From: Paenibacillus lupini
Lineage (GTDB): Bacteria > Bacillota > Bacilli > Paenibacillales > Paenibacillaceae
NCBI RefSeq assembly: GCF_011761355.1
Contig: NZ_JAASRW010000004.1
Location: 237,866-301,865, forward strand
DNA: 64,000 nucleotides
Reading direction: 5' to 3'
A model generated the notes under the pieces. It did not search any database and had not been told where the DNA came from. It saw nothing but the letters and a program-made list of their open reading frames with translations. The position numbers and the translations under genes were made by a program. Of the stretch, positions 3,684 through 57,575 are shown in pieces. How positions within the stretch are numbered: the first letter of the stretch is position 1; every line of letters begins with the position of its first letter.

Positions 3684-3728
3684 AAGAACCACGCCAGAGT
3701 CGAAAGACGTCTGGCGTGGTTCTTTTGT
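3684..3728 (+). terminator. Intrinsic terminator after the SLH-GH18 gene
   Basis: A perfect stem (AAGAACCACGCCAGA pairing with its complement ending at 3724) and a 10-base loop precede a TTTTG run. Confidence 0.9.
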
Positions 3729-3748
3729 TAACGGCCATTGCCATGATA

Positions 3749-3913
3749 AGCTTATGCTTACGAAGTAAGAATCGCCGCCAAAAGCGATGGCAATTCTTTT
3801 TAGCTTATGCTTACGAAGTAAGAATCGCCGTCAAAAGCGACGGCAATTCTTTAAGCTTATGCTTACGAAGTAAGAATCGCCGCCAAAGAGCAGCGGCAAT
3901 TCTTTTTAGGAGG
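3749..3913 (+). promoter_or_regulatory. Three tandem double-hairpin units abutting the ddlR Shine-Dalgarno
   Basis: Three copies of a 52-53 bp unit begin near 3749, 3802 and 3854. Each has a mini-hairpin TGCTT-ACG-AAGTA, then a larger hairpin opened by AAGAAT and closed by ATTCTT. The inner stems differ: GCC/GGC, GCCGTC/GACGGC and GCCGC/GCGGC. The last copy runs through TTTTT directly into AGGAGG of the MocR gene. The same layout precedes murG (16786-16980), a permease gene (53642) and the DUF4247 gene (57499-57575). A structured 5' leader is inferred. Each large hairpin plus T-run also resembles a weak terminator, so attenuation is possible. Confidence 0.75.
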
Positions 3914-3920
3914 TGATCGG

Positions 3921-5384
3921 GTGTATTCTGATATTCAATTTGCGGGCGATCGGCCGGTATCGATGCAGGTTAAGGACTATATGAAACGGCTAATGATAAC
4001 GGGCGCGCTGCAGGCGAATCAGAAGCTCCCGTCCACACGAGAACTAGGACTGCTGATGAATGTCAGCCGCAATACAATCGTGACCGCTTATGCGGATTTA
4101 GTGGAAGAAGGCTTTATTTATGCCGTTAAAGGCAGGGGCAACTTTGTCACTCAATCGGCGGGCGGCGTTGCTGCTGAAGATGGAAGTGGCAAAAGGCTGG
4201 AATGGCGGGACCTGGTTAGCAACTTTGCCCGCACAGCCGAGGAGCATGATCTGATGAAGCATGGCATCCGCGCGAAGCGGGGGGCTATTTCTTTTACCAG
4301 TATCGCTCCGGATGAGAAGCTGTTTGATCTGCAAAATGTAAAGCGTGCATTCCTCGACCGGATGTCACTTGAAGGCAACATTATATTGAATTATGGCTAT
4401 GCCAAAGGTTACAAACCGTTGATCGATTTCCTGATGCGTTATATGGAGAATAAAGGTGTCGAGCTGGCTGGCAAAGATATGCTTATTACAAATGGCTTTA
4501 CGGAAGGGTTCGATCTTGTCCTGTCTGCACTAGGGAAGCGCAGCGGGAATGCGCTTTGTGAAAACCCCACTCACCATACGGCAATAAAAAATATAAAGAT
4601 GCACCAATTCGCCATTACTGGCGTAGATATGGAGCCTGACGGCATTAGCCTAGACCAGCTTGAAGACGAGCTTGGCAAGCGGGAATACGATCTTGCTTAT
4701 CTTGTCCCTTCGTACCATAACCCGACAGGGATTGTGATGTCCCATGTGAAGCGGGCGGAGACGATCCGTTTGCTGAACGAGTGTCAAATCCCAATTATTG
4801 AAGACGGGTTTAACGAAGAGCTGCGTTACTCTGGTGCTCATGTCGCTCCGCTTATCGCCTATGGCGGCAATCGAAATAACGGGACGATTTACTTAGGCAG
4901 CTTCTCTAAAATCCTATTCCCCGGCCTTCGAGTCGGATGGATTCTGGCGGATAAAGAGCTGATCGACTACCTCGAAAGCGTCAAACGTGCACGCACGATC
5001 CATACGTCGACACTCGATCAGTCTTTGCTGTATCAGTATCTTCATAACGGCAATTTCGAGAAATACCTAAAGCGAGCCAAATCGGAGTATAAGCGCAAAT
5101 ATGAGCTGGCTGTGGAAAGCTGCAAGACGTATTTGCCGCTAAAGAGGCTTTCAGGCGATGGAGGACTCCACCTGTTTGTTGAGTTTGAAGAGGCATTCTC
5201 CACGAGGGAACTGCTGCAGGCTTGTACCGATGAAGGCGTGTTGTTCACGCCAGGCGATATTTTCTACACCGATGGTGGAGGACAGCATACGATGCGGCTT
5301 GGTTTCTCCCGCGTATCCGATGAGAATATCGTCAAAGGGATTCAAATCATAGGCAAGACTGCGAAAGATATTTTAGGGTATTAA
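3921..5384 (+). CDS. ddlR: MocR-type regulator (GntR domain fused to aminotransferase fold), probable DdlR
   Basis: A 487-residue transcription factor. Residues 1-75 form a GntR winged helix (KLPSTRELGLLMNVSRNTIV; GRGNFVT wing). The rest is an aminotransferase class I fold that binds pyridoxal phosphate through Lys330 in GSFSKILFPGLRVGW. MocR regulators usually control the adjacent gene, and here ddl follows 39 bases later on the same strand. Known precedent: Brevibacillus DdlR, a MocR protein that activates the D-Ala-D-Ala ligase gene. The symbol rests on this context plus domain structure. Start is GTG with AGGAGGTG 7 bases upstream. It follows the tandem hairpin leader. Unlike classical GabR cases it is co-oriented with, not divergent from, its likely target. 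Confidence 0.82.
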   Translation: MYSDIQFAGDRPVSMQVKDYMKRLMITGALQANQKLPSTRELGLLMNVSRNTIVTAYADLVEEGFIYAVKGRGNFVTQSAGGVAAEDGSGKRLEWRDLVSNFARTAEEHDLMKHGIRAKRGAISFTSIAPDEKLFDLQNVKRAFLDRMSLEGNIILNYGYAKGYKPLIDFLMRYMENKGVELAGKDMLITNGFTEGFDLVLSALGKRSGNALCENPTHHTAIKNIKMHQFAITGVDMEPDGISLDQLEDELGKREYDLAYLVPSYHNPTGIVMSHVKRAETIRLLNECQIPIIEDGFNEELRYSGAHVAPLIAYGGNRNNGTIYLGSFSKILFPGLRVGWILADKELIDYLESVKRARTIHTSTLDQSLLYQYLHNGNFEKYLKRAKSEYKRKYELAVESCKTYLPLKRLSGDGGLHLFVEFEEAFSTRELLQACTDEGVLFTPGDIFYTDGGGQHTMRLGFSRVSDENIVKGIQIIGKTAKDILGY

Positions 5385-5385
5385 C

Positions 5386-5411
5386 AATTTTCTGTGAAAA
5401 TTTTTTAGGAG
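5386..5411 (+). promoter_or_regulatory. Hairpin between ddlR and ddl abutting the ddl Shine-Dalgarno
   Basis: AATTTTC-TGT-GAAAATT forms a 7-bp stem with a 3-base loop, followed by TTTT and immediately by AGGAGG of ddl. The order (hairpin, T-run, Shine-Dalgarno) is that of the larger leader family in this window, but the TGCTT mini-hairpin is missing. It may act as a weak attenuator or keep the ribosome binding site open. Confidence 0.5.
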
Positions 5412-5423
5412 GCTAAACACATC

Positions 5424-16785: not shown

Positions 16786-16980
16786 TATCCTTTCGAAGTA
16801 AGAATCATCACGACCGATGGTTGGGTGATAATTCTTTAGATAATGCTTTCGAAGCAAGAATCATCACAGCTAGCTAAGATAAGCTAGCCTGGGTGATAAT
16901 TCTTTGGATAATGCTTTCGAAGCAAGAATCATCACAGCTAGCTAAGATAAGCTAGCCTGGGTGATAATTCTTTTTAGGAG
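16786..16980 (+). promoter_or_regulatory. Three tandem double-hairpin leader units before murG
   Basis: Units start near 16786, 16839 and 16907; the last two are identical 68-bp copies. Each has a mini-hairpin of the TGCTT-TCG-AAGCA type, then a hairpin bounded by AAGAAT...ATTCTT with inner stem ATCAC/GTGAT. In the last two copies the stem is extended by a second helix, GCTAGCT/AGCTAGC. The final T-run flows into AGGAG of murG. Compared with the ddlR leader, the inner stem changes on both sides (GCCGC/GCGGC becomes ATCAC/GTGAT), which argues for selected pairing. Confidence 0.75.
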
Positions 16981-16989
16981 TTGAGCGGT

Positions 16990-18054
16990 GTGCGTAAAAT
17001 TATGTTTACAGGCGGCGGATCGGCAGGGCATGTAACGGTTAACCTGGCGTTGATCCCCCATTTTATACAAGAAGGCTGGTCGGTGGACTACATAGGCTCG
17101 GAAGCCGGCATTGAGAAGCAGCTCATCGAGCCGCTCCAGAATGTGCGTTACCATGGTATTGCAACGGGCAAGCTGCGCCGTTATCTGGATTGGCAGAACG
17201 TCAAGGACCCGTTCAAAGTCATTAAGGGAGCGTTCCAGGCGTACCGAATTATAAAAAAACAAAAGCCCGACGTGCTATTTTCCAAGGGTGGCTTCGTGTC
17301 CGTTCCCGTTGTGATTGGTGCAAGGCTGAACAAGGTGCCGGTCCTGATTCATGAATCCGATCTGACGCCGGGTCTGGCGAATAAGATTGCGATTCCGTTC
17401 GCGGCGGGGGTATGCACGACATTTCCGGAGACGCAGCAGCATCTTCCTGACGGGAAGTCCCATTACGTTGGAGCGGTCATCCGCGATCAATTGAAACAAG
17501 GCGACGCGGCAAAAGGCCGCAAGTTTGTTGGCTTCGTGTCCACCAAGCCGGTTCTGCTCATTATGGGCGGCAGCCTTGGTGCACGCAAGATCAATCAGGC
17601 GGTTCGTGCGTCGCTCAGCAAGCTGACAGAGAAATTCCAGATCGTCCATCTATGCGGCAAAGGGCAGGTTGAGCCTTCCCTGCAGTCCCCTCAATACAAA
17701 CAGTTCGAGTATGTGAATGAGGAGCTGCCTGATCTGCTGGCGATGTCGGATGTGATCATTTCGCGTGCAGGATCGAACTCGATCTTTGAGTTCCTGTACC
17801 TGCGTAAGCCGATGCTGCTTATCCCTCTAACGAAGGAAGCAAGCCGCGGCGATCAGATTCTGAATGCGCGCTCGTTCCAGTCGGCAGGCTTCTGCGAAGT
17901 GCTCTACGAGGAGAACATGACCCCAGAGACGCTCGTGAGCAGCGTAACCGAGTTGCATGCGAACCGAGATAAATACGTTGATAATATGCAGAAAAATGAT
18001 AACAAGGACGCTTTGTCCCAGCTCATTGGCCTCATCAAAAAGACGGCAAAATAA
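16990..18054 (+). CDS. murG: MurG-type UDP-GlcNAc:lipid I N-acetylglucosaminyltransferase
   Basis: A GT28-family enzyme of 354 residues. It adds GlcNAc to lipid I on the inner face of the membrane to give lipid II. Motifs: [16 protein letters not shown] (first glycine loop), [38 protein letters not shown] (second loop), and [12 protein letters not shown] for UDP-GlcNAc. The gene stands apart from a division/cell-wall cluster, so it may be a second paralogue. TTG at 16981 touches the AGGAG; the in-frame GTG at 16990, 9 bases after it, is the better start. The gene is preceded by the tandem hairpin leader. Confidence 0.9.
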
Positions 18055-43730: not shown

Positions 43731-45425
43731 TTACATCTCTTTTAAAGCCTTAACCCCAAGCATCTGCAGACCATCCTCAAGACATTCAGTCGTCATGTAG
43801 ACAAGCTCGAGCTTTGCTCCTTGCTCGGCTGTGTTACCGGTAATGATCTTCTCGTGATGATAGAACCGATTGAACGTCTGAGCCAATTCGATTAGATAGT
43901 GGGCGACTACTGATGGCTCATACCGCTGTGCGGCTTGCGTAAGAGCATCGGGGTAGCGCATCAGAGCTTTGGCAAGCTGCCAGGCGTAATCGCTAGAAAC
44001 GAAGCTGAAGTCGGATATTGCCGCGGTACCAGCTGCTTCGGATTGCAAGCTTGCTTTACGCAATAAGCTTTGCGTCCGGGCATAGGTGTATTGTACGTAT
44101 GGCCCAGTCTCACCCTCGAAGTTAACGATGTCCTCCAGTGAGAAGTTTACTTCATGCAGCCGTGAATGGAGCAGGTCACCAAAGATAACGGCACCAACAC
44201 CAACCGCTTCTGCAACTTCACCCTTATCGGTGAGAGAAGGGTTTTTCTCATCGATAATGCGCAGCGCAGTCGCTGATGCTTCATCCAATACATCCTCGAG
44301 GAACACGACTTTGCCTCTGCGAGTAGACATTTTCTGCCCATCCATCAGCATCAGTCCAAACGGAATGTGCTTACATTGCTTCGCCCAGTCGAAGCCCATC
44401 CGCTCCAGCACGAGAAATAACTGGCGGAAGTGCAGCGACTGCTCCGCACCTACGACATACAGCAGCTCGTCTCCACCCATTTGTTCATGCCGGTAAAGTG
44501 CTGTTGCAAGATCACGGGTTGCATAAATCGAGGAGCCATCAGACTTCTTGATGATGCATGGCGTCAATCCTTCCTCATCGAGGCGGACGACCATAGCGCC
44601 GTCACTTTCTTCAAGCAGCTCAAGCTGTGCCAACTGCTCGACGACAGCGTCCATTTTATCGTTATAGAAGCTTTCTCCAAGATAATGATCGAAGGAAACC
44701 CCAAGACGGTCGTATAGCTGATTAAACGCTGCGAGGCTGTCATCGATGAAAAGATGCCAATAGCGGTGCGCCTCCGGATCACCGGCTTCCAGCTTCACGA
44801 ACCATTCACGCGCCTCATCCTCCAGCTCGGGATGGAGTTTTGCTTCTTCATGGAAACGGACGTAAAGCTCGAGATAGGCTTTTATCGGGTCTTCGGATTT
44901 CTGAGAAGGATCTCCCCAATGAAGGTAAGCAGCTATCATTTTGCCAAATTGGGTTCCCCAGTCGCCTAGATGATTAACGTTTACCGGTTCATAGCCCACC
45001 TTGCCTAGCAGATGATAAAGGGCGTTGCCGATCATCGTCGACCGCAGATGCCCGATGCCAAATGGCTTTGCGATATTGGGAGAAGACATGTCGATAATAA
45101 CACGTTTGCCAGACCCCAGTTTGGGGAAACGCAGACCCTTCTCACGGTGTTCATTTGCGAACTGCTTAATAACCTCAGCACGGTTAAACTTAAAATTCAA
45201 ATAGGGACCGGCAGCATCTGCAGTCCACAGCTCGCTTTGAACAGACTCACTTAACTGCTCAGCAATTAGAATGGGGCTTTGCTTCAACGTCTTGGAAAGA
45301 GCAAAGCAGGGGAAAGCAACGTCACCAAGCTGTTCGTTAGGTGGAAATTCCAAGAGCTCATAGATTTGCTGCTCGGTTAAAGAACAATGCTTTGCTAATG
45401 ATGCGACAATCATTTCTTTTAACAT
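43731..45425 (-). CDS. argS: Arginyl-tRNA synthetase
   Basis: A 564-residue class I synthetase that charges tRNA-Arg. The HIGH-like motif is FGIGHLRS in SPNIAKPFGIGHLRS, and the KMSKS-like motif is KMSTRRGKV. The C-terminal DALR anticodon-binding domain contains YAWQLAKALMRYPD and ends RFYHHEKI...LGVKALKEM. Expression is controlled by the T-box leader immediately upstream. An argS under T-box control may be the regulated copy if the genome has two, which cannot be seen here. Confidence 0.95.
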   Translation of the reverse strand: MLKEMIVASLAKHCSLTEQQIYELLEFPPNEQLGDVAFPCFALSKTLKQSPILIAEQLSESVQSELWTADAAGPYLNFKFNRAEVIKQFANEHREKGLRFPKLGSGKRVIIDMSSPNIAKPFGIGHLRSTMIGNALYHLLGKVGYEPVNVNHLGDWGTQFGKMIAAYLHWGDPSQKSEDPIKAYLELYVRFHEEAKLHPELEDEAREWFVKLEAGDPEAHRYWHLFIDDSLAAFNQLYDRLGVSFDHYLGESFYNDKMDAVVEQLAQLELLEESDGAMVVRLDEEGLTPCIIKKSDGSSIYATRDLATALYRHEQMGGDELLYVVGAEQSLHFRQLFLVLERMGFDWAKQCKHIPFGLMLMDGQKMSTRRGKVVFLEDVLDEASATALRIIDEKNPSLTDKGEVAEAVGVGAVIFGDLLHSRLHEVNFSLEDIVNFEGETGPYVQYTYARTQSLLRKASLQSEAAGTAAISDFSFVSSDYAWQLAKALMRYPDALTQAAQRYEPSVVAHYLIELAQTFNRFYHHEKIITGNTAEQGAKLELVYMTTECLEDGLQMLGVKALKEM

Positions 45426-45455: not shown

Positions 45456-45710
45456 TAAAAAAACCCCGTCTCAGAAAGAGACGGGGTTGAATCCGTGGTA
45501 CCACTCTTGTTGCTTATAGAGGGACTATGGAAGTCGCGTCGTTATAAGCATCTCGCCGTTGTAACGGTGCTGAACCGGGCGGGCCTACTGTAAAGTTCGG
45601 CCAGCCATCTCCCGGGTCCTCTTCACCTTAATTGTCATCACCGGCTTTCACCACCCCGGCTCGCTGCTCATGAACATCATAAGGATACTGTCCCGTTCCT
45701 CGATATTAGT
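45456..45710 (-). promoter_or_regulatory. T-box riboswitch of argS
   Basis: Read on the minus strand, the leader holds a Stem I region with the AGTA loop-E motif, a specifier loop flanked by TAAGG and CCCG, the T-box core AGTGGTACCACGG at about 45495-45508, and an intrinsic terminator AACCCCGTCTC / GAGACGGGGTT plus T-run at 45456-45488. The specifier region (45618-45622) reads GAAGAGGA, which contains AGA and AGG, both arginine codons. Uncharged tRNA-Arg would stabilise the antiterminator and allow argS transcription. Confidence 0.92.
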
Positions 45711-53641: not shown

Positions 53642-53685
53642 TATGCTTTCGAAGTATGAATTGCTTCACAATTCATTTCAGGAGG
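53642..53685 (+). promoter_or_regulatory. Single-copy double-hairpin leader before the second permease
   Basis: ATGCTT-TCG-AAGTAT mini-hairpin, then ATGAATTG / CAATTCAT closing a 5-base loop, then TTC and AGGAGG of the next gene. It has the same layout as the leaders of ddlR and murG, but with the main stem's sequence changed on both sides (AAGAAT...ATTCTT becomes ATGAATTG...CAATTCAT). It lies inside the operon, so it probably acts on translation or mRNA stability. Confidence 0.65.
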
Positions 53686-56752: not shown

Positions 56753-57490
56753 TCATCGCCGTCGCGATATGCGGCCGGAGCCTTTGCGGATCTTCGGCGT
56801 CGACTTCTTCGGCTTGGTGAACACGGAGCCCGACTTCTTCGAAGAAGAGGAGCCTCCGGTAACGACCTTGCCGGTTGAGCCGCTTGAACCGCTGCCGGAA
56901 CCAACTGCAGAAGAATCCGCGTTCTTCGAACGCTTGAAGATCGTTCCGGTCCGATTGACGGTCACTGGAGGTGCTTTTTTCAAATCCTGAGCGGTTGGCG
57001 CATGATAGGTCGTTTTTGGTTTATAAGTGTCTTTCGACGAATAACCGCGATAAGTGCCTTTTCCATACCGGCCATGATCAAACAAATCATTAAGTACGCT
57101 GGCGAGCAAATAACCTTGCAGGAAGCTGCTACTGTAGTTATTGCGTACATATTCCTTGGAGTCGATCTCAATCAACGTATCGGCTGGATCATCCGGAGCC
57201 TGCTGGATCTGGATGACTTCGTCGTTGTAGACGAGGAACATCCGCTCGGTACTTTCCGCGGATTGCTGCTCCGGCTTTTTCTTATCAACAAGCTGCTTCG
57301 CGACCTCTGGAACGGTCTGATCCGCTGCACGGTAGACGTAAGACGTCTGATTGCCTGAGCCGTTCACCGATTCAAGCGGATACTGCTCCTTTACGGTGTC
57401 AGAGATGGCGCAGGCAGCTAGCATTGGAACGATGAAGCTGATTAATAATAGGATTTTGATGCTATGAAGCCACCATTTCTTGCTCATCAT
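56753..57490 (-). CDS. DUF4247 lipoprotein-like protein
   Basis: A 245-residue exported protein. The N-terminus has a hydrophobic signal ending VPMLAAC (lipobox). YPLESVNGSGNQTSYVYRA, RMFLVYNDEVIQIQ and YSSSFLQGYLLASVLNDLFDHGRYG are typical of DUF4247, a family of unknown role encoded with PspA, DUF350 and DUF4178 genes. The C-terminal third is low-complexity Ser/Gly/Lys ending in a very basic KIRKGSGRISRRR. First ATG taken, with GGAGG 8 bases upstream. It is last in the operon and has its own double-hairpin leader. Confidence 0.8.
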   Translation of the reverse strand: MMSKKWWLHSIKILLLISFIVPMLAACAISDTVKEQYPLESVNGSGNQTSYVYRAADQTVPEVAKQLVDKKKPEQQSAESTERMFLVYNDEVIQIQQAPDDPADTLIEIDSKEYVRNNYSSSFLQGYLLASVLNDLFDHGRYGKGTYRGYSSKDTYKPKTTYHAPTAQDLKKAPPVTVNRTGTIFKRSKNADSSAVGSGSGSSGSTGKVVTGGSSSSKKSGSVFTKPKKSTPKIRKGSGRISRRR

Positions 57491-57498
57491 GCTTCTTT

Positions 57499-57575
57499 CC
57501 TCCTAAAAAGAATTTCCACATGGTATTTGTGGTAATTCTTACTTCGTAAGCAAAGCTCTATGCTTCGTAAGCTAT
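57499..57575 (-). promoter_or_regulatory. Double-hairpin leader before the DUF4247 gene
   Basis: Read on the minus strand: a first AGCTT-ACG-AAGC mini-hairpin that begins in the stop codon region of the DUF4178 gene; a second, TGCTT-ACG-AAGTA; then AAGAATT...AATTCTT with inner stem CCAC/GTGG; then TTTTT and AGGAGG. It matches the ddlR and murG leaders in order and spacing, with a different but paired inner stem. Confidence 0.72.

Follow-up and report, generated by a model that had tools for sequence, protein, structure and literature searches.

Directly before the Shine-Dalgarno sequence (SD) of a regulator gene starting at position 3921, three copies of a short two-hairpin unit stand in tandem, and the same layout precedes three further genes of the window, the whole stretch of 64,000 nucleotides of Paenibacillus lupini DNA analysed here. 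This locus raises the question of what such a module does ahead of genes with so little in common, and whether it is maintained there or has simply landed there. The features that bear on the question are listed below; G007 and G027 denote two relatives used for comparison.

3755..3798, forward strand: array A unit 1, with head at 3755-3772 and closing arm ATTCTT at 3793-3798
3808..3851, forward strand: array A unit 2, with head at 3808-3825, inner stem GCCGTC/GACGGC and closing arm at 3846-3851
3860..3904, forward strand: array A unit 3, adjoining the SD, with head at 3860-3877 and closing arm at 3899-3904
3908..3913, forward strand: SD AGGAGG abutting array A
3921..5384, forward strand: gene of a GntR/aminotransferase (MocR-type) regulator with GTG start, neighbour of the D-Ala ligase gene
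5386..5412, forward strand: probable remnant before the D-Ala ligase gene (start 5424), with hairpin AATTTTC-TGT-GAAAATT, T-run and AGGAGG, lacking a head
16788..16836, forward strand: array B unit 1, with altered head TCCTTTCGAAGTA
16844..16904, forward strand: array B unit 2
16912..16972, forward strand: array B unit 3, adjoining the SD
16976..16981, forward strand: SD AGGAGT of murG
16990..18054, forward strand: murG; the ORF list starts at TTG 16981, and GTG 16990 gives VRKIMF
53644..53676, forward strand: single short unit with the alternative main stem ATGAAT/ATTCAT, common to G007 and G027
53680..53685, forward strand: SD AGGAGG of an ABC permease gene (start 53693)
57508..57552, reverse strand: single unit with head at 57552-57535 and closing arm at 57513-57508, common to G007 and G027
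57559..57573, reverse strand: broken extra head with no hairpin, upstream, within the leader of the DUF4247 gene
57499..57504, reverse strand: SD AGGAGG of the DUF4247 gene (start 57490)

A preliminary description of this DNA had reported eight copies in four leaders, tandemly triplicated at two of them. The eight copies are present, with heads at 3755, 3808 and 3860 (array A), at 16788, 16844 and 16912 (array B), at 53644, and at 57552-57535 on the reverse strand, and arrays A and B are the two triplicated loci; the starts downstream of the four SDs are at 3921, about 16990, 53693 and 57490. Several details had to be corrected. The last copy is followed by AGGAGG at three loci, as described, and by AGGAGT at the murG locus, where the head, said to be conserved, is altered in the first copy (TCCTT). 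A run of five T before the SD had been ascribed to all copies, and the permease copy has ATTTC instead; the altered main stem of that copy, ATGAAT/ATTCAT, had been read correctly. Among the genes served, the regulator linked to D-Ala ligase, murG and the permease stand, while the supposed stress lipoprotein was not confirmed, the gene at 57490 encoding a DUF4247 protein. Between the upstream gene and array A lies a long GC-rich inverted repeat with a T-run (3684-3729; AAGAACCACGCC...GGCGTGGTTCTTTTGTT), which looks like the terminator of the upstream gene; similar repeats occur at the equivalent place in two relatives.

Each unit consists of a near-invariant head, TGCTTNCGAAGYAWG (15-18 nt in P. 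lupini), a variable hairpin and a few T, followed by the SD. The transcript would fold into two hairpins, GCUU-NCG-AAGY and then AAG-stem-loop-stem-CUU, with no base between helix 1 and helix 2. The outer stem of the second hairpin begins within the head (AAGAAT/ATTCTT, at times ATGAAT/ATTCAT), what it encloses can be as small as a triloop or as large as a stem-loop of some 40 nt, and a strong SD begins 3-4 nt past the 5-base closing arm. In arrays the units run head-to-tail, the last one abutting the SD and the inner ones being joined by TTTAAGCTTA-like linkers; one short tandem array has a period of 41 nt. Some unusual forms were seen. One unit (G000:C8:332773-332839) holds a second full head inside its own hairpin loop; at locus L017 (1398-1560), upstream of a single gene whose product has a lipoprotein-like signal, units of two kinds follow each other as A-B-A-B, as though an entire dimer had been duplicated; and in genome G037 a gene resembling a cation-efflux protein is preceded by tandem units whose second stem is unusually long (GGTTTAATGCTATACCATG...).

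The whole genome (6.67 Mb) contains 241 heads at up to two mismatches in 18 positions, 136 forward and 105 reverse, against 6 for the reversed pattern. Within the window, the 11-base core at up to one mismatch has 18 matches where 9.3 are expected, a number reached by one of 100 shuffles; the exact matches are nine, namely the eight unit heads and the broken extra head. The proposal that one module is repeated ahead of many unrelated genes is upheld by these 241 units, and no common theme was visible by eye in the genes of 76 element-gene pairs collected in the part examined. Element genes include what we take, by sequence recognition, to be grpE, dnaK, pnp, ndk, ileS, valS and dnaB. The module does not correspond to a known Rfam class: in the window the only match at gathering score is an unrelated T-box leader (RF00230, 113 bits; 45474-45709, reverse strand) before a 564-aa ORF (43731-45425, reverse strand), and array A searched alone at a permissive threshold gave 12 matches, none of them near its gathering score.

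The position of the element is strict. In 1.4 Mb taken without selection from three species (600 kb of P. lupini and 400 kb each of G007 and G027; heads with at most one mismatch), every one of the 39 intergenic arrays has the sense orientation and is immediately followed by an SD and start codon, 35 by rule and four by eye (three with a mis-found arm and one with a degenerate stem, each with SD and ATG or TTG). A random oriented position would lie 8-30 nt before a called start with a chance of 0.9%. Nine further matches fall inside gene calls and are lone heads, eight of them lacking a closing arm. Likewise, the first 460 kb of the contig hold 14 closed arrays, each with a same-strand start 15-21 nt on, and the other five head matches there have no closing arm. 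Among AGGAGG sites of the 1.4 Mb, the element is found at 28 of 201 called SDs, at none of 390 coding sites and at one of 95 sites elsewhere (Fisher p 2e-14 and 2e-4 for the called SDs against the two other classes), on gene calls from a crude caller that makes some start errors; the single site elsewhere is the SD of a gene truncated by the end of the sampled stretch. The enrichment before start codons that had been suggested for the window is thus confirmed. In the 76 collected pairs the SD lies 3-4 nt past the closing arm in 73, although the pairs had been chosen on the presence of both SD and start, which makes their placement no test of position. AGGAGG precedes 26 of 38 element genes and 173 of 1096 others (p 2e-12), and a co-directional gene lies upstream of 35 of 38 element genes and of 791 of 1092 others (p 0.005). 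Both enrichments are as expected of an intercistronic protector, while the three element genes with no co-directional neighbour indicate that the element site is not confined to operons.

Compensatory pairing supports the second hairpin. In an alignment of 41 of the 59 distinct P. lupini units, 92.2% of cells were paired and double-sided changes numbered 40, where shuffles that keep relatedness gave 14.2, and the covariation score was 0.136, slid controls reaching 0.072; further pair types (12 against 11.4 shuffled) were the one measure of five not above the shuffles. Across several clades, 45 short units gave 58 double changes against 16.3 in shuffles of the same kind and a covariation score of 0.317 against 0.104, slid controls not exceeding 0.070; their 91.5% pairing flatters, since the units were hand-picked and visibly broken ones (such as L241 and L264) left out. 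An unpicked test took 92 units from other genomes, with 15 distinct arms among them: 80 had the 5-base arm exactly complemented in their own tail, against 4.9% for the tails of units with a different arm. The compensated stems seen at first in the window are part of a second stem that covaries both within P. lupini and across clades. The main stem differs wholesale between clades, and the head hardly changes. In the 45 units the head hairpin varies only from G-U to G-C, so its pairing is compatible with covariation and not proved by it. An alternative head pairing, CTTAC-GAA-GTAAG, was rejected, base counts fitting GCTT-NCG-AAGY better; positions 6/12 of the head in 90 units are A/T in 58, A/C in 18, T/T in 6, T/C in 5, G/T in 2 and A/G in 1.

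The comparison of orthologous genes showed that the element is retained between species. Of 232 ortholog pairs between P. lupini and G007, eight share the element, four have it in P. lupini only and three in G007 only, where 0.57 shared pairs are expected (p 4e-10); by eye the tally is nine, four and two, because the element at C4:577237 is shared and the P. lupini start was wrongly called. Against G027, 233 pairs gave five shared, three in P. lupini only and four in G027 only. Detection depends on a recognisable head, and decayed heads are scored as absent in these counts. Identity to P. lupini at four-fold sites is 0.556 in G007 and 0.505 in G027, and the retention of 8 of 12 elements relative to G007 is far above the neutral expectation. 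The eight heads shared with G007 differ at 0, 0, 1, 1, 0, 0, 1 and 0 of 15 positions; those shared with G027 differ at 2, 1, 2, 1 and 4, retention there being weaker (five of eight P. lupini elements). All four leaders of the window are common to G007 and three also to G027, in which the array A site is empty. The SD-adjoining unit of array A has a G007 ortholog with an identical head and no counterpart in G027, and that of array B has orthologs in both, with an inner stem that is altered yet still paired.

Upkeep within arrays follows distance from the SD. Among 31 arrays that were seeded by an interior unit and end at an SD, heads have on average 1.29 mismatches farthest from the SD and 0.19 nearest to it (p 0.001), with 15 arrays graded in this direction, one in the other and 15 ties. 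Such a gradient is predicted by a cis function at the SD and not by a decaying selfish repeat. Chance may account for a few of the most distant heads, as roughly 8% of 56-nt windows contain a head at up to four mismatches, and the gradient could also be mimicked by biased gene conversion.

At several discordant loci whole units are present or absent, with a clean join directly 5' of an SD common to both species. For instance, G007 reads CAGCTAA-GGGAGG where P. lupini has one 41-nt unit between the equivalent flanks, and P. lupini reads GTTTTCTT-AGAGGAGG at a site that is filled in P. glycanilyticus NBRC 16618. Units hence come or go whole beside SDs that exist without them. Two discordant cases, at ddl in P. 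lupini and at C4:340881 in G007, are remnants rather than clean absences. The D-Ala ligase leader carries head-bearing units with a different stem in G007 and G027, so that, judged from these sequences, the headless hairpin of P. lupini is probably a loss. On the other hand, C4:318876 is empty in both relatives, which suggests a gain in P. lupini. Inspection by eye of filled and empty pairs showed no clear target-site duplication, which together with terminal inverted repeats would mark a MITE or IS-derived repeat; their flanks are diverged. The patchy presence implies that no single gene needs the element everywhere.

A search of 51 genomes of the genus with a model of the unit (R1) found at least 83-107 copies each in seven (G000, G007, G009, G010, G011, G027 and G036), five of which were taken as P. 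catalpae (G007), three P. glycanilyticus strains and strain BK033. Fourteen further genomes have one or two weak matches each; by eye these show the same head, with the P. lupini stem in three and another stem in the rest, e.g. TGCTTACGAAGTAAG-TTTTGCTTCGCAAAA-CTTTTTAGGAGG. In an even draw of genomes from the order, presumably Paenibacillales, the head TGCTTACGAAGYAAG was found in 160 of 392, against 21 of 392 for the reversed control, which had at most two matches in each; a stricter cross-family pattern was found in 32 of 394 genomes. Within the order the head occurs in two families (f1 and f6), with none in 22 genomes of other families, and a frequent form in f6 is TGCTTACGAAGTAAGTTTTCTACGAAAACTCTAAGGAGG. 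Genera g5 and g17 are nearly devoid of the element. Outside the order, six of 360 genomes have one match each against seven for the control, which is chance level.

Three pairs of orthologous genes, drawn from 92 foreign genes, bear the element in both families, and this shared placement is suggestive only; by recognition we take the genes to be ndk, pnp and nrdI. For the gene that we presume to be sigE, one set of genomes has a head (up to two mismatches) in the leader of four of five g42 and none of 15 g9 genomes, and the head was also found outside that set, in the g9 genomes L211, L215 and L217 and in the g42 genome L255. From these leader sequences, the sigE element may have been gained separately in the two families. 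Five genomes of family f6 (L250, L256, L257, L265 and L268; genera g42 and g47) carry a compound element, formed by a full unit, a spacer CAACATGG, a half head TGCTTACGA and the SD, before a gene that is presumably rpmJ (ribosomal protein L36).

What has to be explained is a module of fixed place and orientation with a compensated second stem, a near-invariant head, retention between species, best upkeep next to the SD, and presence or absence as whole units. Natural selection appears to maintain the two-hairpin element, which probably tunes the duration or the efficiency with which the message of the downstream gene is used. That it is under selection as a cis element, and that it works on the mRNA where the ribosome binds, we hold with high confidence. 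It very probably forms part of the mRNA, since the SD marks its end and a co-directional gene lies upstream of most genes that carry it. A stem-loop directly upstream of the ribosome-binding site, as looked for in a 5' stabiliser, is found here in place and structure, its occurrence in the mRNA being inferred.

The best explanation overall, in which our confidence falls just short of even, is a structured mRNA module that selection keeps at the ribosome-binding site and that acts in cis, its hairpin protecting or defining the 5' end of the cistron and its head being read by a factor. The second hairpin, next to the ribosome-bound SD, would shield or mark the 5' limit of the downstream cistron, the head would be read by a nuclease or an RNA-binding protein, and tandem copies would arise by local duplication. 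Granted a selected cis element on the mRNA, protection or definition of the 5' end is plausible as its mechanism, and we propose it tentatively. It is favoured because the stem before a strong SD and the near-invariant head resemble what is seen at cggR-gapA and glnRA. In the maturation of these Bacillus subtilis transcripts, the available part of one report describes the downstream hairpin as mainly stabilising the cleaved product, to which mutational scanning of cggR-gapA also points (PMC11780869). As far as that account goes, the hairpins at these RNase Y sites are alike to the present one in lying on the 5' side of the downstream cistron of an operon. The two sites are, to our knowledge, single and have no shared sequence, whereas the Paenibacillus element combines a near-invariant head with a hairpin, has about 240 copies and abuts the SD.

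Translation control by a head-binding protein would rank next on our weighing. A protein or small RNA would bind the head hairpin beside the SD and raise or lower initiation, the genes forming one post-transcriptional regulon; we regard this as possible rather than likely. It would account for a head that stays near-constant while the neighbouring sequence varies, for the fixed offset from the SD (3-4 nt between closing arm and SD in 73 of 76 pairs) and for the better preservation of the SD-adjacent copy, and in some example folds the head pairs with the SD. However, there is no candidate regulator, the gene set is very broad and includes housekeeping genes, and the mean predicted accessibility of the SD is unaltered: its unpaired probability is 0.440 with the array, 0.486 without it and 0.434 in other AGGAGG genes, with no significant difference. 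In six example folds some SD bases were paired in four minimum-energy structures and in two centroids, so that a state hiding the SD is conceivable.

A wider conjecture, which we offer at low confidence, joins regulation and copying: the units would form a genome-wide post-transcriptional regulon built on a copying module, its head read by one factor of the order. They would have spread without a Y1 transposase and perhaps without reverse transcriptase, and would be left only at working SDs, initiation sites being the target of landing or of selection.

A selfish, mobile repeat whose location would reflect a preference for targets 5' of AGGAGG, and whose structure would serve movement, is an improbable account of the element. 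The whole-unit presence or absence with clean joins 5' of SDs common to both species, the tandem arrays, and the clade-specific stems, as if copied within a genome, would all agree with it. Against it, no coding AGGAGG site among the 390 carries the element, nor does any of the other intergenic ones when the truncated gene is taken into account; retention and head identity are far above neutral; and the SD-proximal copy is kept best. Two kinds of mobile enzyme were looked for, and neither was common to the copy-rich genomes. Y1_Tnp (PF01797) has no match in the seven, its matches among the 51 genus genomes being in eight others, and RVT_1 is absent from P. lupini, G007, G009 and G027 and present in G010, G011 and G036, which leaves no shared reverse-transcriptase partner. 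A phage-borne element was rejected with 0 exact full elements in viral contigs. Of the early suggestion of a mobile or copied module, copying fits the presence or absence of whole units, and for mobility by a transposase neither Y1 nor RVT_1 was found in P. lupini.

REP/RAYT and other palindromes derived from IS200/IS605 have a short hairpin with a conserved side sequence in many copies, and REPINs are inverted pairs with no fixed relation to genes. The Paenibacillus element is likewise a many-copy hairpin, but it is tied to the SD in position and orientation and occurs in copy-rich genomes that lack Y1; REP/RAYT descent was rejected on this absence, and the inverted-pair layout on the head-to-tail arrays and the 39 of 39 intergenic arrays in sense before an SD. 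Pneumococcal BOX elements are interspersed and structured, have tandem inner modules and are reported to affect neighbouring genes, and the available part of the same source takes a lean of repeats to regions downstream of genes as a parasitic sign (PMC3049150). As far as that description extends, they are set apart from the Paenibacillus arrays, which when intergenic are all in sense and directly before an SD. A survey of RNA structures in 50 genomes lists structured mobile or repeat candidates with many copies per genome and, in the portion available, regards inconsistent orientation to genes as the mark of mobile repeats (PMC11109978). The orientation of the Paenibacillus element is uniform, in contrast to those candidates as described in that portion.

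A transcription attenuator, in which hairpin and T-run form an intrinsic terminator before the gene that some factor relieves, is decidedly unlikely. In P. lupini, a run of 4-5 T falls within the final 16 nt, stem bases included, in 63 of 76 last units, yet of 55 rows from the second family, a few of them doubtful, 39 have no run longer than two, the A-T rich stem base uses part of the T-run, and 35 of 38 element genes follow a co-directional gene. Because the T-run is mostly missing in the second family, termination or attenuation, which had been among the roles first suggested, is rejected as the general function. Scarcely credible is a DNA-level site (a transcription factor operator or promoter), since although TGCTTNNNAAGCA is an inverted repeat, the orientation and SD offset are strict, the adjoining hairpin has compensatory changes and the '-10-like' AAGAAT reads AAGTTT in relatives.

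We return to the selected mRNA module as the preferred reading. No earlier description of the element was found in the open-access literature searched, and a word search of the main texts of two structured-RNA surveys, including PMC11109978, did not return Paenibacillus. Short interspersed repeats of bacteria are often taken as selfish and position-tolerant, while this one is tied to ribosome-binding sites, is maintained at given genes and reaches 28 of the 201 (14%) called AGGAGG-type SDs examined in three species. This poses a sharp question, namely how a sequence of about 40 nt reached so many SDs with no recognisable mobile enzyme. If the interpretation is true, these bacteria would be able to adjust cistrons one by one through modular and evolvable parts, a shared factor, be it an RNA-binding protein or a nuclease, would await discovery, and the unit would be a ready-made expression part.
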